Shown here one piece after another: positions 2,873 to 57,831 of a stretch of DNA of 64,000 bases; the first letter of the stretch is position 1; each line of letters begins with the position of its first letter. The translations under genes were made by a program, and so were the position numbers. The stretch comes from a virus, in the IMG/VR virus record IMGVR_UViG_3300035670_013167, positions 1-64,000 of that record; one strand, given 5' to 3'. The notes below the pieces were generated by a model, which saw nothing but the letters and a program-made list of their open reading frames with translations, searched no databases and was not told where the DNA came from.

Positions 2873-2876
2873 TAAT

Positions 2877-9875: not shown

Positions 9876-9881
9876 TAAGAT

Positions 9882-11008: not shown

Positions 11009-11229
11009 TATTTCAATATTGATTCTGCTTTTTTCAAACAAATAAAATCATTAGTTTTTGTCCATTTTTTATTAGAATCGTCCCAATAAAAAGGACAAGA
11101 AGGCACGGCCTCAAGAATTTCAAATAGCTCTACGGCGGTTTCGGATTTTTCCAAAGAACGATGAAAAACCAATGGATTTAAATTTTTATGTCTTTCTTTC
11201 AATCCGCTAATAATATTTTCTTCAATCAT
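11008..11229 (-). CDS. hypothetical small protein
   Basis: 73 residues, containing PSCPFYWDDSNKKWTKTNDF. It overlaps the upstream membrane-protein gene by 8 nt and the downstream gene by 1 nt (TAATG), so it is part of a tightly coupled operon. No family recognised. Confidence 0.55.
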   Translation of the reverse strand: MIEENIISGLKERHKNLNPLVFHRSLEKSETAVELFEILEAVPSCPFYWDDSNKKWTKTNDFICLKKAESILK

Positions 11230-16067: not shown

Positions 16068-16068
16068 A

Positions 16069-18006: not shown

Positions 18007-18053
18007 ATTTTTTTTCCTATAAAAAGGTGTATATTATTTATTCAAATAAAAAG

Positions 18054-18061
18054 CATAAATA
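18054..18061 (+). promoter_or_regulatory. late-like CATAAATA element
   Basis: CATAAATA, 6 nt before the ATG at 18068; no Shine-Dalgarno lies between them. Confidence 0.5.
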
Positions 18062-18067
18062 AAATAT

Positions 18068-19150
18068 ATGAATTTTAAAAAATGGTTTTTATTAAAAGAA
18101 AATAATATTGAAAAAATGCAAATAGACTCAAATGAAATTTTGTTTTTTCAATATGCTCCTCAAATACAAATACATTCCGGCTTAGGAAGTATAGATAAAG
18201 AATATTTCGTTAAGCTTTTTAATGAAGAAAAGTCTTTATCAAAAATAAAAGAATTCGTGCATTCTTATGTGAAAAACGACCCAAGTGGGGAAAGGCTTGG
18301 CTGTCGATTGGTTGTTTATAATAATGGCGACATAGTGCTTGGAAAAGCGATGAATCATGTTTATCTAATTTATCAACCAAACGGACAAGGAAGACCAAAC
18401 ACAGAAGGGTATTTTGATTTCAATAATCAAAAAATAACACTTTCAGAATCTAATGATAAAGAGTCTTTCCAAAAAATATCAGTTTGGAAAAAAATATTAA
18501 ATAATTTGATAAAATCTGGTCTGATTAATAAAAACTGGCGGGTTGTTGGTTGTCCGCCGAGTTGCGAAAAAGATTCGAACGCGAAAGTCCAAGACATATT
18601 GAATCAAAAAAATAACATACAAAATTCATCAGAAGATTCTTTAAAGAAAAAGGAAACAGATGCTTTGGTTCGATCTTTTATGACACAGCAAGCAATTCAA
18701 AATAAAAATTCAAACATGATGGGATACATGTACAGATACGGTGAAAGCAATGAAAACAAAGATGTTAATAAAACTCTTAGAAAATTGCCGAAAGATCATT
18801 TCGATCTAATAAAAAAATATAAAATACAATTCGAGCCAAATAACACCCTCAAAGGCGACTCGGATCACATAGGCTTCATAGATGAAGAAAAGAAAAAAAT
18901 AAAAGTTGCCGCTCCATGGCGTTATGGACGAGAATTTACGCTATTACACGAAATTGCCCATGCAGTTTGGAAATACAAAGTGTCCGAAGAGAAGAAAAAA
19001 GAATGGAGCAAAATAATCAAGAATACTAAAAACAAACAAAAACAAAATAACGAAGAGTTATTTTGCATGGCGTATGCAAACTACTATTCAAGACACAAAG
19101 TTGAAATTCACAACCATGAAAAATGGAATAATTTTATAAAATCGCTCTAA
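18068..19150 (+). CDS. tagged zincin-type metallopeptidase
   Basis: 360 residues. The N-terminus MNFKKWFLLKEN belongs to a tag shared by several small proteins here and ends in an L-x-E site. The C-terminal 90 residues hold a zinc metallopeptidase signature, LLHEIAHAVWKYK, followed by EELFCMAYANYYSRH as a likely third-ligand helix. Between them lies a domain with REFT and PPSC segments of unknown role. The TGA overlaps the convergent glycosyltransferase gene by 4 nt. A capsid-packaged, possibly injected protease is inferred from the tag. Confidence 0.75.
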   Translation: MNFKKWFLLKENNIEKMQIDSNEILFFQYAPQIQIHSGLGSIDKEYFVKLFNEEKSLSKIKEFVHSYVKNDPSGERLGCRLVVYNNGDIVLGKAMNHVYLIYQPNGQGRPNTEGYFDFNNQKITLSESNDKESFQKISVWKKILNNLIKSGLINKNWRVVGCPPSCEKDSNAKVQDILNQKNNIQNSSEDSLKKKETDALVRSFMTQQAIQNKNSNMMGYMYRYGESNENKDVNKTLRKLPKDHFDLIKKYKIQFEPNNTLKGDSDHIGFIDEEKKKIKVAAPWRYGREFTLLHEIAHAVWKYKVSEEKKKEWSKIIKNTKNKQKQNNEELFCMAYANYYSRHKVEIHNHEKWNNFIKSL

Positions 19151-19959
19151 ATTAGACGTAAATCATTCGAACAATTGTCTAAAAAACTTTTTGTAACTTT
19201 TTTAAAGTTTATAATATTTTTATTTTTATTAGGGATTGACAAAATACTCTTAAATGGCAAAGATTCTCCGAAAGAAAATTCTCTAAGATTGTTATGAATT
19301 CTTTTGTTAAAATAAGGAAGACAACCATTGCAATAATGGATAAAATTAGAACTTTTATCTTCCATTAAAGAAGATTCTAAATCAACACGCACATCACTTT
19401 CTAAATTTTTTGATAAAACATAGGCAAATGCAACCATTTCTATTTGCCAACGAGCAGCACCTTTCATCAGATAATAAAAAATGTCGAACATCTTGATTAA
19501 AATATTATGAATGTCTAGTAGCAAATTGTTATCGAAATTATTAAAATAATAAACTCCACCACAAGGTTTCCATTGACTTTCTTCTATATCAAAATTATAT
19601 CCGCATTTTTTTAAATTTTTATACTCTGAAAAAGACCAGTATTGTGAATATGAACAACTTGAATAATCGAGCGGACTGACCATGATCATATCTGGGTCGA
19701 TTACAGCAAATGGCTGCTTTATTATATTATTTTTAAGAGCAGTCCATAAAGAAAATGTTTTATTAAAAGGAAGATAATTTTTTTTTCTTCCATAATTTTC
19801 ATGATAAAAAACATTCCGAAATCTTAGTTTTTTCTTTTCGAAATTAGCACAACCTATAACCAAATTATTTTCTAATCCAAAAAGCCTCATGCTTTCATGC
19901 AAAAGTTCTATTTGCCATCTAAAAAATTGACAATTTTCTATACTAACGAAGTATTGCAT
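19147..19959 (-). CDS. GT-A-like glycosyltransferase
   Basis: 270 residues. QPFAVIDPDMIMVSPL (about residues 82-97) contains a DxD-type metal/nucleotide-sugar motif, and KPCGGVYYFNN resembles the acceptor-side loop of retaining GT-A enzymes (related to plant hydroxyproline arabinosyl/galactosyltransferases by pattern). Donor and acceptor are unknown. It sits in a cluster with an RmlC-like epimerase and a GT2 enzyme. Confidence 0.65.
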   Translation of the reverse strand: MQYFVSIENCQFFRWQIELLHESMRLFGLENNLVIGCANFEKKKLRFRNVFYHENYGRKKNYLPFNKTFSLWTALKNNIIKQPFAVIDPDMIMVSPLDYSSCSYSQYWSFSEYKNLKKCGYNFDIEESQWKPCGGVYYFNNFDNNLLLDIHNILIKMFDIFYYLMKGAARWQIEMVAFAYVLSKNLESDVRVDLESSLMEDKSSNFIHYCNGCLPYFNKRIHNNLREFSFGESLPFKSILSIPNKNKNIINFKKVTKSFLDNCSNDLRLI

Positions 19960-25443: not shown

Positions 25444-25549
25444 TTTCTATTTTTTCTTCTTCTTTTTTTACACATCCACACCAAAAACATTTAGATTCGT
25501 ACTCATCAACAACTTTGCCACAATTATAACAAAAAACGTAGTAAACCAT
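25412..25549 (-). CDS. small zinc-ribbon protein
   Basis: 45 residues (MVYYVFCYNCGKVV start): CYNC and CFWCGC form a zinc ribbon, followed by a charged tail. The start overlaps the ALDH stop as TAATG with AAGGA upstream, so translational coupling is likely. Confidence 0.6.
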   Translation of the reverse strand: MVYYVFCYNCGKVVDEYESKCFWCGCVKKEEEKIESDENGKPDNK

Positions 25550-27021
25550 TACTTAAGTCCTTGTGGAAAATTCAAACTTTCTGCGTGGTTGATCGAAACA
25601 GAAACTTTGTGAACTATAGTATCGAACATTCCAGCAGCAGAGGGCCAGCCATTACCAGAAGCTTTAACACCTCCAAAAAAGAAGTGAGACTCCGCTCCTA
25701 TAGATCCTAAATTAAAGTACATCATTCCGGCATCACATTCATTTCTAATTTTTCTCATTTTTCTAAAATCATTAGTTATTGCCCCTAAAGACAATCCAAA
25801 TTTAGTATCGTTATAAATGTTTATTGCATCATCTATTGTATCAAAAGGAACAATTGCAACATGGGGGCCAAAAACCTCCTCTTTCAAAAAAGATTTATCA
25901 GACCATTCACATTCATAAACAAAAGGACCAACAAAATAACCCTTGTTTCCAAAATCAAAGAACAAAGAGTCAAATAATACTTTAGCAATAGAATCTTGTC
26001 TTACCAAGCTATTGTAGTTTTCTATTTTTTCTTTTTGTTCTTTGCTAATAACTGGTCCGAAAGAAACAGACGCACCAACCGGTATTGTTTCATCGGGAGA
26101 ACCAACATGAATTTTTCTAACCTGATCTAAAAAATTATCTTTAAATTTTTCTAAAATTGATCTTTGAACAAGCAACCTGCCTGAAGAAACACATCTTTGA
26201 CCACTCAACTTAAAGGCACTATTAATACACGCAGAAACAGCCAAATCTAAATCGCAATCATCAAAAACCATTACTGCCGACTTACTTCCCATTTCACAAT
26301 TGCAAGTTTTATGCCAACTATTAGCACAGGCAGCCCTAATTGATCTGCCGACTTCAGCACTTCCTGTAAAAGCGACGTGATCAACAATATCACTATTTAC
26401 TATCATTTCTCCAACTTGACCATCACCGTGAACAAGATTAAAAACTCCGGCAGGAAATCCTGCTTCGTGGTAAAGTTCCGCTGTTATTTGCCCCACCAAA
26501 GGAGATAACTCGGAGGGTTTTAAAACAACAGTGTTTCCCTCTAAAATAGAAGGGCCGGCATTCCAACAACCTCCAACAGCAAAAGGAAAATTCCAAGGAG
26601 CAATAACAGCAACAACCCCTTTGGGTTTGCGAATAATGTATCCATCTCTTTCAGGAATTTCTGAGGAGATGATGTCGCCATTATTTTCTCTACCCTTTCC
26701 AAAGCAATATTGAATCATGTGCAATGATTCTACCACTTCGGCCTTACTTTCATTCAAAGATTTTCCAGTTTCTATCGAAATTGCATTAGAAATATAATCT
26801 ATTTTAGATTCTATTATTTTTGATAATTTCCAAAAATATTCGGCTCTTTGAACTCTACTAAAATTTCTCCAAGTGTAAAAAGATTTTTTAGCAGCAGACA
26901 AAGCATTTTCTATCTCAATTTGAGTTGATTGCGGAAAAGATCCAACAACTTGTTCGTTAGATGGATTGTAGCTGTTGAAATCTGCTCTTTTGTTGACAAA
27001 TTCACCATTTATATAATTCAT
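25549..27021 (-). CDS. NAD(P)-dependent aldehyde dehydrogenase
   Basis: 490 residues, full length for the ALDH superfamily. Visible motifs: APWNFPFAVG, the cofactor loop VLKPSELSP, FTGSAEVGR, the catalytic Glu in CEMGSKSA, the catalytic Cys in GQRCVSSGR, and EEVFGPHVAIVPF. It oxidises an aldehyde to the acid; the substrate class (for example semialdehydes of amino-acid catabolism) cannot be fixed. An ALDH is unusual for a phage. The gene shares an operon with an IscA-like protein. Confidence 0.9.
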   Translation of the reverse strand: MNYINGEFVNKRADFNSYNPSNEQVVGSFPQSTQIEIENALSAAKKSFYTWRNFSRVQRAEYFWKLSKIIESKIDYISNAISIETGKSLNESKAEVVESLHMIQYCFGKGRENNGDIISSEIPERDGYIIRKPKGVVAVIAPWNFPFAVGGCWNAGPSILEGNTVVLKPSELSPLVGQITAELYHEAGFPAGVFNLVHGDGQVGEMIVNSDIVDHVAFTGSAEVGRSIRAACANSWHKTCNCEMGSKSAVMVFDDCDLDLAVSACINSAFKLSGQRCVSSGRLLVQRSILEKFKDNFLDQVRKIHVGSPDETIPVGASVSFGPVISKEQKEKIENYNSLVRQDSIAKVLFDSLFFDFGNKGYFVGPFVYECEWSDKSFLKEEVFGPHVAIVPFDTIDDAINIYNDTKFGLSLGAITNDFRKMRKIRNECDAGMMYFNLGSIGAESHFFFGGVKASGNGWPSAAGMFDTIVHKVSVSINHAESLNFPQGLK

Positions 27022-27030: not shown

Positions 27031-27375
27031 TTATTGAAAACTTTTACCACAACCGCAACTTTTTGTAGCATTTGGATTATTAAACTTAAATCCTCTTTGA
27101 CTCAAGTCATCAACCCACTCTAATGTAACGCCATTTAGAAACAATAAACTTTTTTTATCTACAACAAGACTTATATCTCCGTATTGTTGAACAACATCTG
27201 CTTTTTCGTCCACTTCCTCTTGCTCAACAAAACCCAAACCATACATAAACCCAGAACAGCCTCCACCCTGTACTGAAACCCGAACTAAATGATTAGTAAG
27301 TTCTGACTCTTCCATAGCTCTTTTTATTTCTTTTTGAGCGGTTTCTGTTACCATAAAATCTATATCAACTTTCAT
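27031..27375 (-). CDS. IscA/HesB-type Fe-S protein
   Basis: 114 residues of the A-type carrier family with the three conserved cysteines: GGGCSGFMYGL and the C-terminal SCGCGKSF. These deliver Fe-S clusters. AAAGGTG precedes the ATG. Homologues occur in cyanophages and other large phages; what the cluster is for here is unknown. Confidence 0.9.
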   Translation of the reverse strand: MKVDIDFMVTETAQKEIKRAMEESELTNHLVRVSVQGGGCSGFMYGLGFVEQEEVDEKADVVQQYGDISLVVDKKSLLFLNGVTLEWVDDLSQRGFKFNNPNATKSCGCGKSFQ

Positions 27376-27390: not shown

Positions 27391-28323
27391 TTATATCCAA
27401 TAAGAAATAAAGTAACACTTTCCATCTTTTTCTCCAAGCAATATTGGAATTGCATTTTTTTCTTTTATGTCAATCAAATCTTGATTTATTTGTCGTGAAT
27501 TGAAAGAAGGAACTAACACCATATAGTGATCAAATAAAGGAGTTGATTCTAAATCAATAAACAACGACTTAATATAGTCAGTTTTTATATCTTCTAAATA
27601 ATGAATTGGATATATTTTTGGATTATAAATTTCATTATTTAAACAAATTAAGTATTTTTTTTTGTGAAATGAATTTTCTAGGTTCTTAACTACCAATTCA
27701 AATCTATTAATTTTAGCTAAAATTACAGAAGCATTTTTTATAGAAATTCTACGATATCCACAATATGAATCTTTTATTATATCTTTAACAACATCTATAG
27801 AATCTCTAATGTTTTTTGAAAGCTCATAACACCCAACGCTATCGTACCTGTCAGCTTTGCTTTCGGCATCAGCAATTATTTTTTCAAAAGATGTATCATT
27901 TTTTGAAAAAATAGAAAAGTCTTCAGGAAGATTATTCCATATTAATCTGGCTTTTTCATAAAAGCCAGATAGACTAACTTCACTTATTTTTTTGTTTTTT
28001 CTAATTTCTTTTCTAGTTTTTTCATCTTTGATTAATCTAACATATTTTTTATCTAAATTAATTAAATTATAATCAATACATTTGGTATAAAATTTATTAA
28101 TTCCGTCAACAGATAAATTTAAATTATTTTTTAGAGCATAATCAACAAGATTAAGAATCTGACACAACTTCTCAGAAAGGTCATCGTTAATGGGTATTTC
28201 ATAAATACCAAAATGATTAATATTTATAACTTTAGAAAATCTTAATAAACTTAGTCCAAACTCTCCAAGAGCACATTCTATGATTTTTTCTTCAAACCTT
28301 AGAATTTCAGAAAATATTTTCAT
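27391..28323 (-). CDS. hypothetical protein
   Basis: 310 residues of unknown function, alpha/beta, without a recognised motif. It overlaps the infC stop by 4 nt (ATGA), so it is coupled to IF3 translation. A middle segment (ADAESKADRYDSVGCYELSK) looks like a helical hairpin. Confidence 0.6.
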   Translation of the reverse strand: MKIFSEILRFEEKIIECALGEFGLSLLRFSKVININHFGIYEIPINDDLSEKLCQILNLVDYALKNNLNLSVDGINKFYTKCIDYNLINLDKKYVRLIKDEKTRKEIRKNKKISEVSLSGFYEKARLIWNNLPEDFSIFSKNDTSFEKIIADAESKADRYDSVGCYELSKNIRDSIDVVKDIIKDSYCGYRRISIKNASVILAKINRFELVVKNLENSFHKKKYLICLNNEIYNPKIYPIHYLEDIKTDYIKSLFIDLESTPLFDHYMVLVPSFNSRQINQDLIDIKEKNAIPILLGEKDGKCYFISYWI

Positions 28324-28832
28324 TTTGTTGGTTCAACTAAACAAGACAAAAATTTACCGTCCATATTTGGCTTTTTTGAAACAGTTGCCTTTTCTTCTGG
28401 TATTTTGGACAAGAACTTATTTAAAACTGCGTAACCTAATTCTTTGTGATTGTTCTCTCTTCTTCTAAATTCTAGTCTAATTTGAACTTTATGTCCAGAA
28501 CTTAAAAACTTCAACATTTGATTGAACTTTGTTTCTAAATCGTGATCTTCAATTCCACAGGACAATCTTATCTCTTTAATTTGAAATTGTTTTTTTCGCT
28601 GTTTTTTTTCTCTTATTTCTTGCTCATACTTAAATTTACTAAAATCCATTATTTTACATACAGGAGGTCTAGAATTTGGAGAAACCTCAACTAAGTCCAA
28701 ATTTTTATTTAGTGCCATTTCCTTTGCCTTAAACAAAGGAATAGAACCTAAATTATCGCCTTTGTCATCTATCACAACAATAGGAGATATTCTTATTTTA
28801 TCATTTACTCTATAAAACTTTTCGCTTTTCAT
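28320..28832 (-). CDS. infC: translation initiation factor IF3
   Basis: 170 residues, complete IF3. The N-terminal domain (VNDKIRISPIVVIDDKGDNLG, then LDLVEVSPNSRPPVCKIMDF) and the linker KYEQEIREKKQRKK are followed by the C-terminal domain (KEIRLSCGIEDHDLETK, VQIRLEFRRRE). IF3 controls start-codon choice and subunit splitting. With bS21 and deformylase in the same window it points to phage control of host initiation. The many TTG starts and the probable ATT start nearby make this notable. Confidence 0.95.
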   Translation of the reverse strand: MKSEKFYRVNDKIRISPIVVIDDKGDNLGSIPLFKAKEMALNKNLDLVEVSPNSRPPVCKIMDFSKFKYEQEIREKKQRKKQFQIKEIRLSCGIEDHDLETKFNQMLKFLSSGHKVQIRLEFRRRENNHKELGYAVLNKFLSKIPEEKATVSKKPNMDGKFLSCLVEPTK

Positions 28833-28853
28833 TTAAGACTCTTTAAAATTCCA

Positions 28854-29552
28854 TCAAGTTGCAGAATCGTTTATTTTTATCAAAAAACCTTCGCCAGAGG
28901 AAGGAAATCTTCTTACAGACAATATTTGAGATAAATCTTCATTCAATTCTGACAACTTGTATTCGAGCCAGTAACACCCGGGCAAGCTTGTAGAATCTTC
29001 TGTCCAGTTGAAAGTGAGGTATGTTGCCGTCAATTGATTTTCCAGTATGGTTCCATCTTCTTTTTCAATATTTTCAAAAACAGATTCTATGTCTGCGTCT
29101 TCTTCGAACAATCTAAAGACTCTAAAACCAGAACCTTTGTTCCAAGATTGAGGAGTCGTATTATCATATCCTCTTGTAACAACAACTGTTTTTTCAGATT
29201 CATTAAAGCTAACTATTTGCATTTTTTCAGCATTTCTGGCCCTGTTCATAACTAGTATATCATTTTGCTTTATCTGCTCAAATCCTATATTGTCCGCAAA
29301 AGATATAGTTGTTTCTACACTATTAATAGACTTTTTTAATTTAGAAGAAATCCACATGCTGACTTGCAAAGCGTAATTTTCCGTTAAATCTACAACTCCA
29401 TCGCAATCTTCTAAATTAATTTTAAATGGAGGAGTTGTGTCGTTTCTTTTTAAACAAAAATCAGGAGCAACACCGTCTGGACATCCTGTCTGTGCATCTA
29501 GACAGTTGTTCGAATTACTGCAACCTATTCCTAAATTTATATTCATTGTCAT
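28854..29552 (-). CDS. probable late/virion protein, unknown
   Basis: 232 residues. The N-terminus is Cys-rich (MNINLGIGCSN, QTGCPDG), followed by beta-rich segments with MNRARNAEKMQIVSF and VVTRGYDNTTPQSW, a pattern reminiscent of tail/baseplate spike-associated domains. The gene stands alone behind TATAAATA (6 nt from the ATG) and downstream of a terminator, so it is an independent late unit. Confidence 0.65.
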   Translation of the reverse strand: MTMNINLGIGCSNSNNCLDAQTGCPDGVAPDFCLKRNDTTPPFKINLEDCDGVVDLTENYALQVSMWISSKLKKSINSVETTISFADNIGFEQIKQNDILVMNRARNAEKMQIVSFNESEKTVVVTRGYDNTTPQSWNKGSGFRVFRLFEEDADIESVFENIEKEDGTILENQLTATYLTFNWTEDSTSLPGCYWLEYKLSELNEDLSQILSVRRFPSSGEGFLIKINDSAT

Positions 29553-29558
29553 AAAGTA

Positions 29559-29566
29559 TATTTATA
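29559..29566 (-). promoter_or_regulatory. T4-late-like TATAAATA element
   Basis: TATAAATA on the minus strand, separated by TACTTT from the ATG at 29552. Confidence 0.55.
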
Positions 29567-29578
29567 GTTTCATAAATA

Positions 29579-29611
29579 AAAAACGGCAGAACAAAAAGCC
29601 CTGCCGTTTTT
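29579..29611 (-). terminator. intrinsic terminator
   Basis: AAAAACGGCAG pairs with CTGCCGTTTTT around an 11-nt loop. On the minus strand the hairpin ends in six T. It terminates the operon ending with dCMP deaminase, just before the late promoter at 29559. Confidence 0.85.
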
Positions 29612-29706
29612 CACCAAATGCAGAATAAAAATCACCCCCTTTATAGTCAGCATTTGTATCATTATTTTTATATTATACAAAGTAAAAAAATATCAGTCAA
29701 TTATAA

Positions 29707-30225
29707 TCAAGAAAAAATACCAAATTTTTCTAAAACACTGATTCTTTCTTTCATCCAACCAAGACTTCCAGAAAAAGAAATCAATTCAACACCAGCAAGT
29801 TTTGCAATCTTGTTCGTCACTTCTCTTTCATTATTGCTAGATAGCATTGAAGAGGGATCTACAATTTTACTCATATCAAAATAAATAACCTTTGATATTT
29901 CGGCATCTACTATTTCCAACATGCATTTTTGACAAGGAATTCCCGTTACATATAAAGTGCAATCTTTTGTAGAAACCAAAGAGTGGTCAATAGCATTTGC
30001 TTCTGCATGTTTGATATATGGGTATTTATGAGGTCTATCCCAATCAATTTCATTATCATTTATTTTCTTAGGAGGACCATTATATCCAATCCCAGTTATT
30101 TCATTATTTTTATTGACTATAACAGCGCCAACTTGAGTATTAGGATCTTTTGAAAAACTAGCATAAAAAAATGCTAATCCCATGTATTTCTCATCGCGAG
30201 AGGGAACTGATCTTGGACCTATCAC
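29707..30225 (-). CDS. dCMP deaminase
   Basis: 172 residues from GTG 30225. The zinc site is visible as KHAEANAI and IPCQKCMLEI, with the family pattern SKDPNTQVGAVIVN and GIGYNGPP near the N-terminus. It converts dCMP to dUMP, feeding ThyA (60884..61756). The GTG was chosen over a longer TTG start because it overlaps the upstream stop as GTGA and puts the N-terminus where the family begins; the longer frame adds only a Lys-rich stretch. Confidence 0.9.
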   Translation of the reverse strand: MIGPRSVPSRDEKYMGLAFFYASFSKDPNTQVGAVIVNKNNEITGIGYNGPPKKINDNEIDWDRPHKYPYIKHAEANAIDHSLVSTKDCTLYVTGIPCQKCMLEIVDAEISKVIYFDMSKIVDPSSMLSSNNEREVTNKIAKLAGVELISFSGSLGWMKERISVLEKFGIFS

Positions 30226-30407
30226 TTTTTTTTCTTTTTCTTTCTTCTTTTTTTCTTTTTCTTTATTTCTAACATCCAAGGAGATGCGGTCGAACGACTA
30301 TGCATCGAGGCATCAGGAATTGGTGGACCTAATCCTAATGCAGCGGCTTGTCTGGCTCGCGTAAAAGCACTTGATTCTTTTGATAAAATCCAATCATGAA
30401 AAGACAT
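30222..30407 (-). CDS. tagged small basic protein
   Basis: 61 residues. MSFHDWILSKE matches the shared N-terminal tag (F3, W6, L8, E11), though P3 before the Glu is Ser. It continues with an Ala/Gly/Pro segment (QAAALGLGPPIP) and ends in a run of Lys/Arg. The stop overlaps the GTG of dCMP deaminase by 4 nt. ATG 30416 is an alternative start. A DNA-binding capsid-internal peptide is inferred. Confidence 0.6.
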   Translation of the reverse strand: MSFHDWILSKESSAFTRARQAAALGLGPPIPDASMHSRSTASPWMLEIKKKKKRRKKKKKK

Positions 30408-30427
30408 AAATTTCATAAAATTATATA

Positions 30428-31180
30428 TTATGTCCACAAGCTTTTTCTTATTTTTATTAAATTAATAAGCATATTTTCGTCTTCCTTTTCATATTTTGCC
30501 TCTAATTTAGTCAGAAGCTTAAAGGCTTTATCTTTTGCTTTTTTATCTTTTGATTCAAAATTTATATCCCAACCGCTTTCTTTATGCGGATCTCTGGTCG
30601 GCCTTATATTCTTCCACCAATCATAAATTTCTCGTATTTTTTTTGCAACTTCTGCTTGATGCGTTGGCTCTCCATAACCCTTTTCCCCTTTCTTAATTCC
30701 ATATTCTTCATCTTTCACAAGATTAGAAGCCCAATTTAAATAATCAATTCCGGCTTCCGGACATCTTCCTTTTTTAAATTTGAATTTTTTTTCCTTAGAA
30801 CAAATGTGATTCATCCACGCCTGCTCTACTTCTACAAAATCTACCAACTCATTAAATAATCCGTGAATAATTCGATAATCTAAATCATGATAATAACCAG
30901 GAGTTAGTCCAGTTTTTAAGTAATGAGTTTTTGTTATAAATCTATTATTAATATAATAATAAATAGATCTATAAACATCTTTTGGGAAATAAATTATATT
31001 TTGAAGCTTGCACAAAAGTTTATCAGAAATCCAGTATCGCCATTTATTATTATTTTTTTGATTATCTTTCCAAACGTCCCACTCATCTAAAGTGAGCGCC
31101 ATTGGCTTCTTTTCTCCTCTAATCCAATCTGCAAACTTAGAACAAGACCAATAGTTAAATCTGTGCCTGTGGATTTTCAT
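30428..31180 (-). CDS. hypothetical protein
   Basis: 250 residues rich in Trp, Tyr, Lys and His (CSKFADWIRGE, YYHDLDYRIIHGLFNELVDF, EVEQAW, PEAGIDYLNWA). It looks like a soluble alpha-helical protein; similar Trp/His-rich proteins of unknown role occur in large phages, but no family name can be given. The start overlaps 31177..31479 by 4 nt. Confidence 0.6.
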   Translation of the reverse strand: MKIHRHRFNYWSCSKFADWIRGEKKPMALTLDEWDVWKDNQKNNNKWRYWISDKLLCKLQNIIYFPKDVYRSIYYYINNRFITKTHYLKTGLTPGYYHDLDYRIIHGLFNELVDFVEVEQAWMNHICSKEKKFKFKKGRCPEAGIDYLNWASNLVKDEEYGIKKGEKGYGEPTHQAEVAKKIREIYDWWKNIRPTRDPHKESGWDINFESKDKKAKDKAFKLLTKLEAKYEKEDENMLINLIKIRKSLWT

Positions 31181-31479
31181 GCTTTGTAGTTTCCCATTTC
31201 TATTTCAGATAGCTTTTCAAGATCAAAGTTTTTTTTAGCATCTTCATGAGCTTTTTGCAACTTGTAAAAAAACTTTTTCATTTTTTTTAAGTATCTGGTT
31301 GTGCAGTAAATTCCTGTGTGCCTAACAAAGTAAAAACAACTTCCAAAAATTAAAAAATAAATTAAAAATCTTTTTTGAATAGAAGTTGTAAAATATTTTG
31401 TCATCCATAATTTATCTGGCGGGATGTAATCTTCTAAAAAAAAGCCAGAAACTAAATTTCTATCTCTATTTTCTACCAA
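31177..31479 (-). CDS. hypothetical membrane protein
   Basis: 100 residues with one membrane segment (about 37-52, FLIYFLIFGSCFYFV) and a basic coiled C-terminal tail. The given start is TTG with GGAGG very close upstream; a later ATG (MTKYFTT) is an alternative. Overlaps the upstream gene by 7 nt. Confidence 0.5.
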   Translation of the reverse strand: MVENRDRNLVSGFFLEDYIPPDKLWMTKYFTTSIQKRFLIYFLIFGSCFYFVRHTGIYCTTRYLKKMKKFFYKLQKAHEDAKKNFDLEKLSEIEMGNYKA

Positions 31480-31913
31480 ACCTCCATCCCCTCAACAAGC
31501 TCAATGTGCATTAGTATCATCCCTCCTACAAATTCTTGAGGAACCCATTTCGAAATGTTTTCTATAAGCTTAACCATATACTTAATTTCATCTTCTACTA
31601 TTAAATTATTTTGATTCGAAAATTGAAAATTATTGTCTTCCATAATCTCATAAGCTTTATTTACACCATCTGATACAGTTGTTTTTATTACCATATCTAA
31701 ATAATGAGGCAAATCTAAAATAGTTTTAGATATTTTTCTTCCATCATGCAGCTTTTTGTCAGCAAAATAATTATTTATGCATTTTTTAATTATAGGTTCA
31801 ATTTCTTTATAAAAAGAACTTATAAATCTAGAATCATTAGATTCAATATCAAAATTTTCAAATTCAAAATCAATATCGATTTCGTCTGAGACTTCTAACA
31901 TGCAGGAATTCAT
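31473..31913 (-). CDS. hypothetical acidic protein
   Basis: 146 residues, acidic N-terminus, then helical. TTGGAGAA is a good Shine-Dalgarno before ATG 31913. First gene of the 29707-31913 operon. No family recognised. Confidence 0.55.
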   Translation of the reverse strand: MNSCMLEVSDEIDIDFEFENFDIESNDSRFISSFYKEIEPIIKKCINNYFADKKLHDGRKISKTILDLPHYLDMVIKTTVSDGVNKAYEIMEDNNFQFSNQNNLIVEDEIKYMVKLIENISKWVPQEFVGGMILMHIELVEGMEVW

Positions 31914-32021
31914 AAATTCTCCAATTGTATATTTTCAGAAATAACAAAATCGGATTTTATCATAAAAAATCAGCAAGTCAATATATACCATTAGAAAAAA
32001 CTATAAAATTTAAGGATTAAA

Positions 32022-32492
32022 ATGAATAAAATAATCATTGTAATGTTAACATTAATATTAAGTGGATGTAATGTTAGTCCACTAAGCCCTAGCAACAGAC
32101 CTAAAATAAACAATCAAAATGGAACAATAGAAGACATAAAAAATAATCAAAACGGACTAATGGCTGATCTAGCAAATATCAGAAGCAGGCTAGAAATAAT
32201 GGCAAGAGACGTAGAAAATCTCCAAAACGGATTTATTAATTCAAATAATAGAAATTATGGAGTGCAAATTTTCCAAGGAGAAGGAGGACTGATTGCGGGA
32301 GTCTTATTGATTTCTTTCCTAGGATTTTTAGTTTTTAACTACAGATCAAAAGCAATAAAATACGAAAAAGTAGCAAATATTATGGGCAAAGAAATAAAAT
32401 CACTAAAAAACAAAAATATAGAGAATGAAATTTTTATAACAGCTTTGGGCGCAAAAGTTGAGGAAGATGTTTATAAAATATTAAAAAATTAA
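32022..32492 (+). CDS. lipoprotein with internal membrane segment
   Basis: 156 residues. A type II signal with lipobox LILSGC (Cys at residue 16), an Asn-rich linker, a coiled segment (DLANIRSRLEIMARDVENLQNG), a second hydrophobic span (about residues 88-103) and a coiled C-terminus. A lipoprotein plus a transmembrane segment recalls spanin-like proteins that join inner and outer membranes, but this is only a structural analogy. AAGGA precedes the ATG. Overlaps the convergent gene by 4 nt. Confidence 0.7.
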   Translation: MNKIIIVMLTLILSGCNVSPLSPSNRPKINNQNGTIEDIKNNQNGLMADLANIRSRLEIMARDVENLQNGFINSNNRNYGVQIFQGEGGLIAGVLLISFLGFLVFNYRSKAIKYEKVANIMGKEIKSLKNKNIENEIFITALGAKVEEDVYKILKN

Positions 32493-32764
32493 ACATCATA
32501 TCCTTGTTTTATATTTCTCAATAACAAAAAGCCTTCACAATTGTTTCCAATCGGCTTATCTATAAGTTTAGGATTGATTTTTTTCATTTTACAATTTGCT
32601 ATAAAGTTTTCAGTAGCTTCATCTATTTTATTTTTTTCTATTGGCCTTAATTTCAAGCAATGAAATTTAGAAGAATCAAATTCATCATTGTGCAAATAGC
32701 GACAAGTTTTACTTCCGCAATTTAATAAACAAACATTCTTAACATGATTTTTCGATAAAGTCAT
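32489..32764 (-). CDS. Cys-rich hypothetical protein
   Basis: 91 residues with six cysteines (VCLLNCGSKTCRYLH, FHCLKLRP, ANCKMKK, NNCEGF), spacing suggestive of a zinc or Fe-S site. It overlaps def by 4 nt. No family recognised. Confidence 0.55.
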   Translation of the reverse strand: MTLSKNHVKNVCLLNCGSKTCRYLHNDEFDSSKFHCLKLRPIEKNKIDEATENFIANCKMKKINPKLIDKPIGNNCEGFLLLRNIKQGYDV

Positions 32765-33273
32765 TTTGATATCTTTTCTTGAATTTGAATTTCTTGACCT
32801 ATATTACTTATCAATATATTATTATGATGATCTATTTCATGCTGAAATATGCAACACTCTAAATCTTGCTTAAAAACTTTTTCAAAATCTAAAACTTCTA
32901 ATTTATCTTTATCACTTAATATTTTACCAACAACTTTTATTTCCTTGAATCTCATAACTTTAAAATGTCTAATTTTTCCACTATGAGATTTTATAGACAA
33001 GCATCCCTCTATAGACAAGTGCTTGTCTTCATTTACAGGAAAGTATTCACAATCAATCATATAATTAAATTTATTATTTTTTTGATCTTGATATACAAAA
33101 AATTTCCAAGGAATTCCAACTTGGACAGCGGATAACCCAACCCCGTTATTTTTTAAACAAACGTTTTCCATTTTTTGACCAATTGAATACAATTCACTTA
33201 ATTTATCACAAGGAGTATTTTCTACAATACTAGGAATTTGTTCAATTGGAACTATTTCTATTTGCTTGTTCAT
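32761..33273 (-). CDS. def: peptide deformylase
   Basis: 170 residues from ATG 33273, which overlaps the upstream stop (ATGA). All three deformylase motifs are present: NNGVGLSAVQVGIPW, EGCLSI (metal Cys) and FQHEIDHHNN (metal His pair with catalytic Glu). It removes the N-formyl group from new proteins. The rest is more divergent than bacterial PDF, typical of phage enzymes. Confidence 0.95.
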   Translation of the reverse strand: MNKQIEIVPIEQIPSIVENTPCDKLSELYSIGQKMENVCLKNNGVGLSAVQVGIPWKFFVYQDQKNNKFNYMIDCEYFPVNEDKHLSIEGCLSIKSHSGKIRHFKVMRFKEIKVVGKILSDKDKLEVLDFEKVFKQDLECCIFQHEIDHHNNILISNIGQEIQIQEKISK

Positions 33274-33539
33274 TCGCACAAAGCCTTAACAACAGCATCT
33301 GTTCTAACCTTAAGCCAAGCTTCAAGTTCTTGAGGATTGTTTTTCAAGTTAGATGGAATTTTTAATATGATAGGAATTTCATCATTATCATTGACTAAAA
33401 GATCAAGATATTTACTTATTAAATCTCTTATCATTTGAGAAACATTTTTATGGCCAAGTTTTTTTGATGAAGTTTTAACCAAATCATACATTTCAGAATC
33501 TAACGAGAGACTCATTATTTTTAATTTATTATCAGACAT
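33270..33539 (-). CDS. ribbon-helix-helix-type protein
   Basis: 89 residues. KIMSLSLDSEMYDLVKTSS (strand plus helix) then HKNVSQMIRDLISKYLD fit a CopG/MetJ-type RHH DNA-binding domain, followed by an extension of about 40 residues. A repressor of nearby genes is plausible. AGAGGT precedes the start. Confidence 0.65.
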   Translation of the reverse strand: MSDNKLKIMSLSLDSEMYDLVKTSSKKLGHKNVSQMIRDLISKYLDLLVNDNDEIPIILKIPSNLKNNPQELEAWLKVRTDAVVKALCE

Positions 33540-33551
33540 AATTTTTACCTC

Positions 33552-33797
33552 TTAATTTGAAAACCTACCTCTGATTTTTTCTTTTTGAATCTCTGCTTCG
33601 GATTCTTTTGCTTTTCTTTTTCTTTTTTCACTTGGACTTTCGTAATACTGTCTTTGTTTGTACTCAGATAAAATTCCCGCCTCATTTACCTGTCTTTTGA
33701 AAGCTGCGAGCATGTTTTTGAATGCTCTTTCTCTTTCTTCTCTTGATGGATTAGGAGGCAAATCTTTCATTTCTACTCTAACAATACCTTTTTTCAT
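33552..33797 (-). CDS. rpsU: ribosomal protein bS21
   Basis: 81 residues: PNPSREERERAFKNMLAAFK and GILSEYKQRQYYESPSEKRKRK match bS21, with a basic C-terminal tail. bS21 is the small-subunit protein closest to the mRNA-16S pairing site and is the ribosomal protein most often carried by phages. It likely replaces the host copy to favour phage mRNA. Just upstream of the RHH gene and def. Confidence 0.93.
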   Translation of the reverse strand: MKKGIVRVEMKDLPPNPSREERERAFKNMLAAFKRQVNEAGILSEYKQRQYYESPSEKRKRKAKESEAEIQKEKIRGRFSN

Positions 33798-33804: not shown

Positions 33805-34947
33805 CTACATTTCCTCTCTATTAATTTTTATAAATCTAGAACCAAATTTTTTAATTTTATTTTTTCTAACATAATCATAAGGAACAATCTTATTAGAAGC
33901 GGCCGTAGAAGGCCATAAATCCCTATTTAATAAAGGAATTATTTTCCCCAACTTAGAAACAACAGCGTCTAATAAATTGTTTTTCCAACTATTTTTATCT
34001 TCTCCACTTATTATAGTAGGAAAACTAAAAATATAATCTTTTGGTAAATCTTTCGCACACAAATCATCAATTTCGTATTCTTTTAATGCATTAAAACGAT
34101 TTCTTTCGTCAAACATTAAAAATGGAGTTCTTGAACATATTGCTAGTCGAGAAATTCCCGTAAAAAAGTCTAAAACAAATCCAGTGGCCCGCATGGCAGA
34201 CATAATCTTGGAAAGATCTTTATCCCACAAATGCAAACAATTTTCATGCGTGTCTGCTGATATGTCGTGACAGAATAAGTCTCTATATATTACAGGGTAA
34301 TGTCCTTCACTTATGAGTCTTTTTACAAGTGTAATCCAAAATTCTCTATCGCTTCTTACTTTTTCGCATCGACCCATTTTCCATATATTTATTTCTATTG
34401 AAGGATATATGAAAACTTTCAAATCTTTAGCAGCAATATGTCTTGCAAAATCAATTCCTAAAGAAGAGCTAGAATTAATTGTAGGCAAACTAACTTTTAC
34501 ATGTTTGAACTTATCAAAAAATTCTTTTGTTATTCCTTTATCATAATATTCAATTAAATCTTTATCGGTCATTATTTCATAAAAATATTCATTAAGAGAT
34601 CTAATCAACAAGGTATAGTAAGAAGAATTATTAGAAAAATTATTAATTTGAAAACGAAGTTTCTCTAAAGCAACATCCTCTTCTATAGTCCAATATTCGT
34701 CAACATAAGGATACAGAGACTCATGTCCGGGCCAAGACAATAATATAAAATATTTTGATGCCTTGGCTTCTTCTTTTATTCTTCGCAACAACAAAGAAGA
34801 AAGAATAAAAGAAGATCTCATGTCCCCAAAAAAAGGAAAAATAACAACATTTTCTATAGAAGTAGGGACTTTATTATTATTAAAAACAATTCTCTTAAGG
34901 CCTAATTTGTCGCAAGATTTTTTTAAAATTTCATTAACATTAAACAC
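33805..34947 (-). CDS. GT-B-like glycosyltransferase, unknown specificity
   Basis: 380 residues. Rossmann-like N-terminal part (VVIFPFFGDMRSSFILSSLL) and a second half (KVFIYPSIEINIWKMGRCE, TLVKRLISEGHYPVIYRD, then a TGFVLDFFTGISRLAICSRTPFLMF segment) that fit a GT-B fold of the heptosyltransferase (GT9) kind. It overlaps the paralogous-looking neighbour at 34947 by 1 nt. The donor is unknown; HldE in the same genome could supply ADP-heptose. Confidence 0.6.
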   Translation of the reverse strand: MFNVNEILKKSCDKLGLKRIVFNNNKVPTSIENVVIFPFFGDMRSSFILSSLLLRRIKEEAKASKYFILLSWPGHESLYPYVDEYWTIEEDVALEKLRFQINNFSNNSSYYTLLIRSLNEYFYEIMTDKDLIEYYDKGITKEFFDKFKHVKVSLPTINSSSSLGIDFARHIAAKDLKVFIYPSIEINIWKMGRCEKVRSDREFWITLVKRLISEGHYPVIYRDLFCHDISADTHENCLHLWDKDLSKIMSAMRATGFVLDFFTGISRLAICSRTPFLMFDERNRFNALKEYEIDDLCAKDLPKDYIFSFPTIISGEDKNSWKNNLLDAVVSKLGKIIPLLNRDLWPSTAASNKIVPYDYVRKNKIKKFGSRFIKINREEM

Positions 34948-36140
34948 TATAAAGCCCCTATTCTTTTATCATTATTTTTTTTTGTTTGTAAAACTAAATC
35001 TTTATTTTCAACCATGCCAATCATATCAGAAAAATTATTCATTTTAATTTCTTCAATACATCTTCTAACAACATTTATTCCTTCATCATTATTATCATAA
35101 ATATTTAAAAAATGATTAACAGATAATTTTCTTTTTCCTAAATCGCAAAGATTTCTTCTAATTCCTTCCTGTCCGCGTTTGCCCCAAATCTGGTCTGGGC
35201 TTTCAAATAATATATAAGGAACACCCATCATGCCAGACAATCTAGTTGAGGCCGTCCAAAATTGAATCGTAAATTCGCAGCTTTTTATTATAGAAAAAGT
35301 AATCTCTAAATCCTTAGAATCTTCCATTCTAGAAAAATCAACCACATCATCTACTGGGCACTTTTGAGTACTAACTTTTTCTCCTAACCAAATTACATCA
35401 TAATTAAGATCTCTAAGCAATTTAATTAATTTAATATAGAATTCAGGTTGCAAATTTCTTCCATAACATTTTCTTCCTCTCGCAAAAACTCCAACTGTCG
35501 GTTTTTTTATAAATTTTTGCACCTTAATTAATTTTTCTTCACTAGGAATCGGAATACTAATTGCTCTTTTTTTCCAATAACTAATTTCGCTTCCTATTAT
35601 TGGCGGAATTGTATTTTTACTTTTACATTTTGGACAGAAATCATGAGGAAATAAATCTCCGCTCTGACGAACTGTGTTCCAAAAATTATCGCAATCTTTA
35701 CAACGTGCCGATATAGAAAAATTGCCTAAATCAGAAGACTTAATAACATGACCAAATTGACCCATCTTTTTTTCTATAATAGATAAATTATCAGAATCAT
35801 GATGAAAAGCTCTAGCAAATTCTCTTAGACTCATAAATTCTTCATTGATTTCCCAAAACTCATCAACAAGATGCTGATATAAATATTTTCTTCCATGCCA
35901 ACCGATAACAATTTTATATTTATTAGGATTTCTAATTATTATCTGTGGAACTGTATACATTACTCCTACAGTCTCACAACCAAATTCAGAAAAACAACAA
36001 AATATTATCGTCTTGTTTTTATCATTTGGATTTGGCCTATTGCTTAATTTGTGAATTTTAAATTTAATATTTTCTATTTTTTCTTCAATAATATTATCAT
36101 GAGAATATGGATTTCTTCTATATGTTTTAAATAATTTCAT
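34947..36140 (-). CDS. GT-B-like glycosyltransferase with zinc-ribbon insertion
   Basis: 397 residues. Like its neighbour, a GT9-type outline: KPTVGVFARGRKCYGRNL, YIKLIKLLRDLNYDVIWLGE, and CEFTIQFWTASTRLSGMMGVPYILFESP near the donor site. Unusually, a CKDC...CPKC zinc-ribbon insertion sits between the two halves (about residues 147-176). Confidence 0.6.
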   Translation of the reverse strand: MKLFKTYRRNPYSHDNIIEEKIENIKFKIHKLSNRPNPNDKNKTIIFCCFSEFGCETVGVMYTVPQIIIRNPNKYKIVIGWHGRKYLYQHLVDEFWEINEEFMSLREFARAFHHDSDNLSIIEKKMGQFGHVIKSSDLGNFSISARCKDCDNFWNTVRQSGDLFPHDFCPKCKSKNTIPPIIGSEISYWKKRAISIPIPSEEKLIKVQKFIKKPTVGVFARGRKCYGRNLQPEFYIKLIKLLRDLNYDVIWLGEKVSTQKCPVDDVVDFSRMEDSKDLEITFSIIKSCEFTIQFWTASTRLSGMMGVPYILFESPDQIWGKRGQEGIRRNLCDLGKRKLSVNHFLNIYDNNDEGINVVRRCIEEIKMNNFSDMIGMVENKDLVLQTKKNNDKRIGAL

Positions 36141-38590: not shown

Positions 38591-39121
38591 TTATTCTTCC
38601 TGAATTTTTTGATTTAATTCTTTATTTTCTTCATCAGAAAGCAAATGAGACTTTATCCTTTCTTTTATTTTGATATTTATTTTTTCATTTTCTTCAGGAG
38701 AATATTCTTTTGTTTTTAATTCATCTAAGTTTAGAACAGAAATAGAACACCAGTGAGGATCATCTTTAGGAACATGTCCTGGCTTGGTGTAGAAAAACAT
38801 TTCCAATGTGTACTTATAAGATTTCTTAGCAACCTCATCGGCAGTCATGCCAGCCAAAAGATCTTCCGCCATTAGTCTTGGAACTTTATGAGCGTCTATT
38901 TCTGAAGCAAACAGTAACTTTCTCATTATTTGAACTGTTGCTTCCATCTTGTTTTCCGTATCTGTCAGAAGCGATATTATTTGTCTTTTTTCGCCTCCAT
39001 CAACAAATTCAGCAATCGCAGAATATTTAGCTATAATTTCGCCCTTTTCGGGCTTTGACCTTCTGATATCTTTAAAATATTCACTAAAATTAGATTCATT
39101 TATTTCTACTTCTTCAATCAT
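38591..39121 (-). CDS. hypothetical protein
   Basis: 176 residues, acidic, helical, overlapping the polymerase gene by 8 nt. No motif recognised. Position next to dnaE suggests but does not show a replication role. Confidence 0.55.
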   Translation of the reverse strand: MIEEVEINESNFSEYFKDIRRSKPEKGEIIAKYSAIAEFVDGGEKRQIISLLTDTENKMEATVQIMRKLLFASEIDAHKVPRLMAEDLLAGMTADEVAKKSYKYTLEMFFYTKPGHVPKDDPHWCSISVLNLDELKTKEYSPEENEKINIKIKERIKSHLLSDEENKELNQKIQEE

Positions 39122-41687
39122 TTTCGCCTCTTTTTGCAGGTGCTTCCATTACTTGTAGTCTGTGGTCTTTTGATTTATCTTGCGGAAGCTTGTATCTTTC
39201 TTGTTTTCTAGGAGACTCAAAGGTATAAGACTTAAACCCTTTTCCGGGTTTTGTGACTCTCATTTGAATTAAATTACCTCTATTTTCTTCACAATTCCAA
39301 TAATTCAATTCTTCTTTGAACCTATTATAATCTTCTTCCCAAAAAGTTACAACTTCAACATTCCAATCCTCATCTTCAACAAGAACATAATAATATTTGT
39401 TGCCATTTTTTGAAATTTTTTCTTCCGGCTTTTTAGTAATCATACACTCAACACCAGCATTGTATATCATTTCGTCTTCTTTGAATCTTGTAAAAGACAA
39501 GTCTCCTTTATAATCAGGACTTTTTTCTAGAGGGTGCTGCCAACTAAAGCCGTAATATTTTTTTTCTATGTCAAATTGATTTGGTATTTCATCTGCTGGG
39601 TGTGTGTTTTTGCATTCCCAATTTTCAAGAGAAATAAAATTTTGCTCTAGCAATTCGGCTTTTTGCTCATAGGAGGTCACAGATTTCCAATACTTTCTTA
39701 ATATTTGATAAAAATCTTCTTTAGTAAATTCTTCTAGCAAATAAGATTGTTCAAAATTATCAAAATTTTCATAAAGATTCATTAAGTTTTCATGAATCAA
39801 TATATCATGATTTTTTAATAGGCCTTTCATTTCCTCTATTAGTAAAGATCTTCTTTTTTCTTGAGCTTTAATTTTAGAAACATTGCTTTTATCCCATTTC
39901 TTAAATTCTTCATAAAACTCAAGAAGAATATGAATTGGCCTTTCTTTAAAAACTTCTAAGTAAATCAAAGGCTCTACAATTCTCTTGTCTGTTCCGAACC
40001 TTTTTAAGAAATCTTCAATTCCAGAAAAAGGTTGTTTACTAACTATTTCTTCTGCGACTTCTTTGCCTATTCCTTTTATGTTTGAAAAACCAATATAAAT
40101 TTCATTATCAACTATTTCAAAATTAGCTTTAGATTTATTTAAGTCGCATCTATTTATTTTTATATTTAATCTTTCCGCTTCTCGTTTATATGACTTGAGC
40201 TTGTCCTCATCAGACTCTAAACTTAAAGTCGAAACAAAAAACTCAAGAGGATAATGAGCCTTAAGATAAAGTAGTCTCGAAGAAAGGTGAGTATAAGCAC
40301 AAGCATGACTTTTATTAAAACCATAGCCAGAGAAAGCTTCAATCTGATTGAATAAAAAGTTCATGTTTCTATTATCATCGGATTCTATAGGCCAGCCAGT
40401 TTTCCTACTGCCGTTCTCTAAAAACATCTGTTTGTATTTTGCAAATTCTGATATTTTCTTTTTACTAATTGCTTTTCTAATTTTTTCACAATGTATTAAG
40501 GGAATATCTCCGACCACATTCAACACTTGCATACATTGTTCTTGATAACAGAGAATTCCATGGGTTTTTTTCAAAACTTCTCTAACACATTCAGGAACCT
40601 GATCCTCCCATTTTTCTCTGCCCTTTTTTCTTTCGATATATCTTTCGTGCATCTGCATCTTTAATGCAGATGGTCTAAATAAAGCAGTATACGCAACCAA
40701 ATCATCAAAAGAATCGACGCCTCCTGACTTGATCAAATTTCTCATTCCTTCACTATCAAATTGAAAAACGCCTCTAGTTTTTGCTTCATTGGCCAAAAAT
40801 AAAGATTTTGGATCATTCAAATAAGAAGTGTCAGACCAATCAGAACAACCTTCTATAGCAGAAATGGACTTTATTTTATGCCTATCTTTAATTAATTTGC
40901 AACAATTAGCGATTCTCAACAAGTCCTTAATTGCAAGAACGTCAAATTTTATGAGACCTACAGGTTGCAAATCTTGATCATGTAAACCTTCTGTCCAGCC
41001 CGATACAGGATTGCCATCAGTATCAATCATTACTGGAACAAAGTCATCTATTTTTACACTAGAAATTACAGTACCGCCCGCGTGTTTGCCTCTGCTCCTG
41101 TTCCTGTCAATCAATCTTCTTGCAGCGTCGGTAACTTCTGGGTATTTTTTAGAATACTCACTTAATTCAGGAGATAACTCTAACGCCTTTTCCCAAGTAA
41201 GAGGATTGCCTTCTTCATCTCGGTCTTGAAGATTTTTTGTAATAGATTGAATTTCATTTCTATCGACCCCATGAACTCTCGCCATATCTAACAAAGCAGA
41301 CTTCATGCCGAAAGTGCCATAATTTCCTATATTAACAACATTGTCTCTTCCAAAAGCTCTTGGACAATAATCATTTCTCAAGTAATCTTGAATAATGGGC
41401 AAATAATCCACATCAATATCTGGAAACTCTCCTTGGACATATTTTGGTTCTTTGCTAATGTCAAAGTCATCGCATAAATCTAAAAGATAAGCTATAAATA
41501 AATTATTTTCATTATTAGAAAATTTAGCTTTCTTTTCATGTAAATTTATAAAATACTCATGATCTGCTTGGTTGTCCGTTTCTTGCAATTCCTTTTTCAA
41601 TCTGTTTTTGTAAATTTCAGAATTGCAATTCTTAGACTGCATACTCTTGATGCAAATCTTTATTAATTTTTCTCTTAAATCTATCAT
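39114..41687 (-). CDS. dnaE: DNA polymerase III alpha, C-terminal fragment
   Basis: 857 residues. The frame starts just before the catalytic palm motif PDIDVD (residues 89-94) and covers the rest of the alpha subunit: palm (GKHAGGTVIS), thumb/fingers (GVFQFDSEGMRNLI, LFRPSALKM, FNKSHACAYT), helix-hairpin-helix (NIKGIGKEVAEEIV) and an OB-fold near the C-terminus (KISKNGNKYYYVLVED). The first 80 residues are unlike the usual sequence. The N-terminal half is at 47753..50268, 6 kb upstream, so the enzyme must assemble from two chains. Confidence 0.9.
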   Translation of the reverse strand: MIDLREKLIKICIKSMQSKNCNSEIYKNRLKKELQETDNQADHEYFINLHEKKAKFSNNENNLFIAYLLDLCDDFDISKEPKYVQGEFPDIDVDYLPIIQDYLRNDYCPRAFGRDNVVNIGNYGTFGMKSALLDMARVHGVDRNEIQSITKNLQDRDEEGNPLTWEKALELSPELSEYSKKYPEVTDAARRLIDRNRSRGKHAGGTVISSVKIDDFVPVMIDTDGNPVSGWTEGLHDQDLQPVGLIKFDVLAIKDLLRIANCCKLIKDRHKIKSISAIEGCSDWSDTSYLNDPKSLFLANEAKTRGVFQFDSEGMRNLIKSGGVDSFDDLVAYTALFRPSALKMQMHERYIERKKGREKWEDQVPECVREVLKKTHGILCYQEQCMQVLNVVGDIPLIHCEKIRKAISKKKISEFAKYKQMFLENGSRKTGWPIESDDNRNMNFLFNQIEAFSGYGFNKSHACAYTHLSSRLLYLKAHYPLEFFVSTLSLESDEDKLKSYKREAERLNIKINRCDLNKSKANFEIVDNEIYIGFSNIKGIGKEVAEEIVSKQPFSGIEDFLKRFGTDKRIVEPLIYLEVFKERPIHILLEFYEEFKKWDKSNVSKIKAQEKRRSLLIEEMKGLLKNHDILIHENLMNLYENFDNFEQSYLLEEFTKEDFYQILRKYWKSVTSYEQKAELLEQNFISLENWECKNTHPADEIPNQFDIEKKYYGFSWQHPLEKSPDYKGDLSFTRFKEDEMIYNAGVECMITKKPEEKISKNGNKYYYVLVEDEDWNVEVVTFWEEDYNRFKEELNYWNCEENRGNLIQMRVTKPGKGFKSYTFESPRKQERYKLPQDKSKDHRLQVMEAPAKRGEND

Positions 41688-57480: not shown

Positions 57481-57831
57481 TCATTTTACTTCGCCAAAAT
57501 ACTTTCCGCTAGAAATATCATCAATTTGCCTATAGGGAGTTTTGCCCATATGAGATTTTTTTTCAGCGTTTTTTCTTTGATCTCTAACTCCACCAGGCCT
57601 ATCCATATTCCATTTATGTCTATAATCATGACCTTTAGAGTCACTATGCCAACGATCTGTCCCAACTGGATTCGTAAATTTGACAGAAGGGCATCCTATT
57701 AATTCACATATTTTTTTTGACTTGCATTTTGGACACTTGCTCTTTTTTACAACAATTTCTTTTTCGGACATCGAAGCCCAAATGTCGAAATTTTCTTTGC
57801 ATTTTTCGCATTCAAATTCATATCTTGGAAT
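57481..57831 (-). CDS. FmdB-like zinc-ribbon protein with probable ATT start
   Basis: 116 residues. From ATT 57831 it reads I(M)PRYEFECEKCKENFDIWAS, the exact outline of FmdB-type regulators (MPxYxxxC-x2-C...F-x-SM), followed by CPKCKSKK as the second zinc pair and a HDYRHKWN segment. The first ATG (57771) would cut away half of the zinc ribbon. AGAGG lies 5 nt before the ATT, and TATAAATA 19 nt before it. No ATG, GTG or TTG occurs in frame between the promoter and ATT. Function: presumed regulatory/structural zinc ribbon. Confidence 0.7.
   Translation of the reverse strand: MPRYEFECEKCKENFDIWASMSEKEIVVKKSKCPKCKSKKICELIGCPSVKFTNPVGTDRWHSDSKGHDYRHKWNMDRPGGVRDQRKNAEKKSHMGKTPYRQIDDISSGKYFGEVK

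Follow-up and report, generated by a model that had tools for sequence, protein, structure and literature searches.

We describe a gene cluster in a 64-kb window of viral DNA (positions 1 to 64,000 of IMG/VR record IMGVR_UViG_3300035670_013167), which belongs to a phage record of 106,763 bp that is itself a fragment. Genes for the initiation factor IF3, the ribosomal protein bS21 and peptide deformylase (PDF) lie on its minus strand within 5.5 kb, all full length and apparently intact. Coordinates and Pfam matches bear out the grouping within 6 kb that the first-pass annotation had put forward. The three genes constitute a phage-borne, linked set related to initiation, conserved as a cluster and probably functional together. 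Our preferred reading, to which we assign a probability of roughly 0.55, is that a huge-phage lineage carries these genes as an initiation-support cluster, in which a feedback-free IF3, a replacement bS21 and an extra PDF would raise initiation capacity during infection. The defining features are:

28320..28832, minus strand: phage infC, encoding a full-length IF3 of 170 aa (Pfam IF3_N and IF3_C, PDB matches, tree)
28830..28835, minus strand: ATG start of the phage infC, immediately 3' of an in-frame TAA stop (sequence, in contrast with bacterial infC)
32761..33273, minus strand: peptide deformylase (Pep_deformylase, E=3.7e-19) with intact catalytic motifs
33552..33797, minus strand: ribosomal protein bS21, 81 aa (Pfam Ribosomal_S21, E=3.7e-13, 49.4 bits, cut-off 27)

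Both domains of IF3 score well above the curated Pfam cut-offs (IF3_N, E=9e-27, 93.5 bits against 26.9; IF3_C, E=7.5e-26, 90.3 bits against 34.8), and the top PDB matches are bacterial IF3 chains (E=1.5e-37). In the IF3 tree, the clade of the window has a support of 99/92 and joins no single bacterial phylum, so that the tree does not indicate a host. The bS21 is about 15 residues longer at its N-terminus than that of E. coli. In PDF, the motifs GxGxxAxQ, EGCLS and HExxH are present as GVGLSAVQ, EGCLS and QHEIDH, and six aligned sequences show no variation at the catalytic Gln, Cys, His, Glu and His.

The start codon of infC sets the phage gene apart from its bacterial counterparts. In bacteria, the start codon of infC is usually AUU or one like it, and this codon is the means by which IF3 keeps down its own production (PMC9410913); another report describes repression by IF3 of a further non-canonical start, the GTC of Streptomyces sigR (PMC5472188). 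The infC of the window lacks the non-AUG start of autoregulated infC genes, and because the in-frame TAA abuts its ATG, no AUU, AUA, AUC or other start is possible. A plausible start, defined as an in-frame ATG 4-35 codons ahead of the conserved Asn (E. coli N16), is found in 40 of 45 phage infC genes and in 20 of 90 bacterial ones (p about 1e-13, a value that is too small since the sequences are related). Consistently, the ATG density per codon in phage infC is 0.038-0.045 in frame as against 0.002-0.011 out of frame, and the in-frame density in bacterial infC is close to background. As phage IF3s fall into several separate groups in the tree, the switch to ATG probably happened more than once, a statement that follows from this grouping and not from a formal count of independent events. 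No description of such a switch was found in the open-access literature searched.

The second line of evidence is the linkage of the three genes. The deposit LR756511.1, an uncultured huge phage of 595 kb, is collinear with nearly the whole centre of the window, as are the IMG/VR records G004-G010 and G025. Among these relatives, LR756511 and G005 (436 kb) are phage genomes that exceed 200 kb and bear translation genes, as in the huge-phage set of Al-Shayeb et al. 2020. The order bS21, ribbon-helix-helix (RHH) gene, PDF and, further on, IF3 is kept in 9 further relatives (LR756511, G004-G007, G009, G010, G025 and G039), with 4-9 kb between PDF and IF3 in the clade of the window; in G008, bS21, the RHH gene and IF3 are present and PDF was not found. 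Single-sequence scans with IF3 and bS21 had returned few relatives, and a tblastn search for bS21 in named phages gave 0 matches, whereas an alignment-based scan proved effective.

To measure linkage more widely, 54 IF3-bearing phage records were chosen by IF3 alone, and bS21, PDF and IF3 were then located along each entire record. Several arrangements were observed: bS21 followed by adjacent IF3 and PDF (G001-G003); bS21 at 4-5 kb from PDF, and IF3 at a distance of 17-22 kb (G014-G018, G023, G041); and IF3 0.3-7 kb from bS21 (G012, G043, Phosso, Atu_ph07). In LR756504, LR756501 and G031 the three genes are far apart. With one record per lineage of the IF3 tree, uniform placement, and the least favourable member taken for the mixed IF3-bS21 group, the combined and conservative p values are 0.0026 for IF3-bS21, 0.0007 for bS21-PDF and 0.010 for IF3-PDF, obtained from few lineages and against a simple null. 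A control gene from the same genomes, PhoH, shows no clustering (p 0.44, 0.20 and 0.086). The evidence that clustering of the three genes exceeds chance in several lineages is good but not overwhelming.

These data bear on the view that the three are passenger genes, brought close by chance and kept so by inertia in a region rich in host genes (aldehyde dehydrogenase, a HesB-type Fe-S protein, DnaJ, ClpP, a deaminase). Many unrelated cell-like genes do surround the cluster, and synteny over tens of kilobases implies that neighbours persist jointly. However, the three families also cluster in lineages with another gene order (G001-G003, G014-G018, G023, G041), the 20-kb IF3 loci L006-L008 have no other detectable gene in common with the window, PhoH is unclustered, and catalytic and binding motifs are preserved. 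Chance proximity is excluded by the synteny in 9 further relatives together with significant clustering elsewhere, and we regard the passenger view as highly improbable.

Residues of the window IF3 were compared, in E. coli numbering, with 90 IF3s from three bacterial phyla, a set that replaced the 80 bacterial IF3s nearest to the window, which were dropped as biased. K110, R131, R133, H137 and G167, which we take to be important for 30S binding and fidelity, are retained in the window, as is Y75. The changes found are R99S, R112N, R129E, R147K and R168K; S99 also occurs in 6 of 30 Bacillota IF3s, and E129 in none of the 90 bacterial sequences. Among the nine members of the window's IF3 clade, R131 is replaced by E, S or T in four (non-basic in 5/90 bacteria, all L and from the Bacteroidota set) and R168 by N or S in five (non-basic in 1/90). 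Judged by these substitutions, the basic face of the IF3 C-domain is somewhat relaxed within the clade; for the IF3 of the window, its residues are compatible with lowered as well as with unaltered fidelity. As a separate observation, a sample genome from the Bacillota side (G103, C1:443644-443889) carries a second, diverged copy of the IF3 C-domain (E=1.2e-12) beside a normal infC.

Such variation, greater in the clade than in the bacteria, could be expected if a weakly discriminating phage IF3 displaced that of the host and, with the phage bS21, permitted ATT, TTG and leaderless phage starts. A further two features of the window point the same way, namely one probable ATT start and the motif ATAAATA 3-6 nt upstream of five starts. 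The ATT codon opens the following gene:

57481..57831, minus strand: Zn-ribbon protein with an ATT start at 57831-57829, AAAGAGGTG upstream; ATG at the homologous position in relative L065

The match to Zn_ribbon_8 (E=3e-8, 34.0 bits) is just under the cut-off of 34.4. With the ATG in L065 as support, the ATT start at 57831 is probably real, and the first-pass annotation was right to suspect one such start in the window. Its other statements on initiation fared less well. Under a longest-open-reading-frame rule, the 79 genes of the window begin with ATG in 65 cases, TTG in 9 and GTG in 5, a host-like usage and thereby one half of the outcome that the first-pass annotation had named as refuting its view. 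The supposedly many TTG starts are mostly an artefact of this rule: an ATG follows within 20 codons in 11 of 15 non-ATG cases inspected, and relatives back non-ATG starts at 34947 (GTG), at 31479 (TTG) and in the deaminase gene (TTG or GTG). The leaderless appearance ascribed to late genes amounts to a suggestion from ATAAATA, for which AT-rich control positions yield nearly as many matches overall.

Shine-Dalgarno (SD)-like motifs precede 35% of starts, compared with 9% of control positions. Starts are chiefly ATG with SD, with a single well-supported ATT, and the window IF3 retains R131, R133, H137 and K110, which argues against relaxed fidelity. IF3 does not discriminate against AUG, GUG or UUG; it does so against AUU, AUC and AUA and antagonises leaderless initiation (PMC4611024, a review; also PMC5037330). 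UUG and GUG are thus not targets of IF3, and more IF3 of intact fidelity would hinder, rather than favour, the ATT gene and leaderless mRNAs. The suggestion of the first-pass annotation that these factors could favour initiation at TTG, at ATT or without a leader is not supported, the published action of IF3 on ATT and leaderless starts being the opposite, and we consider a relaxed-fidelity set quite unlikely.

The SD and ATG usage of the window fits starts that are compatible with IF3 and counts in favour of an initiation-support cluster. According to this proposal, the phage would produce its own IF3, bS21 and PDF during infection. Although the phage and bacterial proteins belong to the same family, the known autoregulation needs an AUU-type start, so that the AUG-started infC should escape the AUU/AUA/AUC feedback limiting IF3 in cells, and the level of IF3 could rise. 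bS21 is a small protein on the periphery of the 30S subunit, located at the mRNA exit and SD site, and the phage version may join or replace that of the host there. PDF would let the deformylation of N-termini keep pace with the added initiation. In sum, phage mRNAs with ordinary AUG/SD starts would find more 30S subunits competent for initiation, and the AUU-started infC of the host might at the same time be repressed. The intact genes, the conserved cluster and the AUG switch are observed directly; that the genes are expressed, that their products enter ribosomes and that physiology changes as described are predictions from sequence.

A bolder version is conceivable, which we hold to be unlikely. 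Here, captured infC genes would repeatedly have exchanged an AUU-type start for AUG, the phage IF3 would shut off host infC and other non-canonical host starts and replace host IF3 on the 30S subunit, and the AUU-started phage gene at 57831 would respond to the level of IF3, making bS21-PDF-IF3 a dedicated initiation-takeover module.

Alternatively, the AUG-started IF3 might build up and, by preventing subunit association and promoting recycling, release 30S subunits from host 70S ribosomes that stand idle, with bS21 and PDF as supply genes lacking any start-site selectivity. The intact two-domain IF3, released from feedback, is compatible with such ribosome takeover by subunit splitting. So are the surroundings of the cluster, which consist of replication and housekeeping genes (DnaE, a clamp-loader-like AAA protein, a DHH phosphoesterase, the deaminase, ClpP and DnaJ) with no structural block, suggesting early or middle expression. 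The linkage of bS21 and PDF to IF3 is nevertheless left unexplained, and neither RRF nor EF-G, at which no search was aimed, turned up in the scanned genes; we regard this alternative as doubtful.

Several points weigh against an initiation-support cluster. PDF or bS21 is distant from IF3 in a number of phages (W02, W03, G031, W05, G043, G021, G042), and clustering can stem from common expression timing or ancestry instead of joint function. The ATG of infC could be a by-product of placement in an AT-rich phage operon. Finally, the substitutions R129E, R112N and R168K might have weakened the function of the IF3 C-domain.

The gene types themselves are known. The passages covered of Al-Shayeb et al. 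2020 (PMC7162821) likewise report IF1/IF3, rpS21 and PDF from huge phages, in agreement with the first-pass annotation as to bS21 and IF3 copies in very large phages, and propose that such genes redirect host translation. The rpS21 proteins there also carry N-terminal extensions; in those passages, neither linkage of the three genes nor a start switch of infC is described. Freshwater Bacteroidetes phages (Chen et al. 2022, PMC9723584) encode a bS21 that is likewise proposed to substitute into host ribosomes. In those phages, bS21 is late and located in a structural/terminase module, whereas in the window its companions are RHH, PDF and IF3, close to replication genes; another difference is that the window makes use of SD motifs and Bacteroidetes do not. 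Jumbo phages share a phage-encoded IF3 (Iyer et al. 2021, PMC7824862; RaK2, K64-1, Atu_ph07 and Phosso records), and Atu_ph07 and Phosso have bS21 within 1.6 and 7.1 kb of it. These records differ in belonging to other lineages with other neighbours (ClpX, topoisomerase II) and in a PDF that is distant or absent. Phage PDF with conserved catalytic motifs is known from cyanophages (Frank et al. 2013, as cited in PMC7162821). The best PDB match of the window PDF, 3uwa/3uwb, carries in its deposit the title 'RIIA-RIIB membrane-associated protein', which the S-SSM7 PDF gene also bears, and is only about 32% identical. As far as could be searched, the start-codon switch of phage infC and the linked cluster across lineages are undescribed.

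The frames of bS21, RHH, PDF and a 91-aa protein follow closely on one another, overlapping or almost touching. For PDF, the ATG at 33273, which overlaps the RHH stop (ATGA), is better read as the start than the GTG at 33279 of the longest frame (32761-33279). The neighbouring features are:

33270..33539, minus strand: ribbon-helix-helix protein (Pfam RHH_1) between bS21 and PDF, its position kept in the relatives examined
32489..32764, minus strand: conserved 91-aa protein of unknown function with a 4-bp overlap with PDF, same operon (synteny; no Pfam match)
29707..30279, minus strand: dCMP/cytidine deaminase-like gene within the cluster, likely with a non-ATG start (relatives)
33805-34947 (GTG start) and 34947-36140, minus strand: two conserved paralogues directly upstream of bS21 (synteny; no Pfam match)

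Immediately downstream of IF3 lie a full aldehyde dehydrogenase gene (25549-27021, minus strand), retained in LR756511 and G005, and a gene for a HesB/IscA-type Fe-S cluster carrier (27031-27375, minus strand). The 106.8-kb record holds 0 tRNAs, a search for IF1 found none, and the window has 0 Rfam matches. A sigma-70 promoter scan over the cluster scored no higher than shuffled sequence; the phage encodes a sigma-70 family factor with regions 2 and 4 (6577-7128, minus strand).

Two genes encode DNA polymerase III alpha (DnaE), which is divided just ahead of its catalytic PDIDVD motif (47753-50056 and 39114-41687, minus strand), and the C-half has a new, conserved N-terminus of ~86 aa. The same division is seen in G004, G006 and G010, and the extended C-half also in G005, G008 and G009; in LR756511, DnaE is a single continuous gene. 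The DnaE coordinates in relatives are 2015-3169 and 13842-16505 (L061), 10292-11440 and 17038-19431 (L065), and 7099-10650 (L010). A split intein was considered, and inspection by eye revealed no intein motif at the junction. At the start of the N-half (50057-50290, minus strand), the sequence MTQKGDKQVKIVGFEHLHLH runs into a stop and continues in another frame, reflecting a frameshift, a sequencing error or recoding.

Inserts bearing LAGLIDADG motifs interrupt PrkA (54161-57412), the PHP domain of DnaE (47753-50056) and PhoH (16069-18006), all on the minus strand of one record; those in PrkA and DnaE match intein splicing domains, and a helicase in L003 (4034-7396, minus strand) perhaps has a similar insert match. 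PrkA, DUF444 (YeaH-type) and SpoVR stand side by side (51349-57412, minus strand), resembling the bacterial yeaG-yeaH/ycgB stress set. LR756511 likewise has the DUF444 and SpoVR genes, and near IF3 in LR756504 there are distant relatives of all three.

Accounts of phage IF3, bS21 and PDF have so far been inventories of single genes that say little on how they act. Their clustering, together with the consistent loss of the self-limiting start, leads to an easily testable prediction: the phage IF3 would be free of feedback, and host infC could be repressed in trans.

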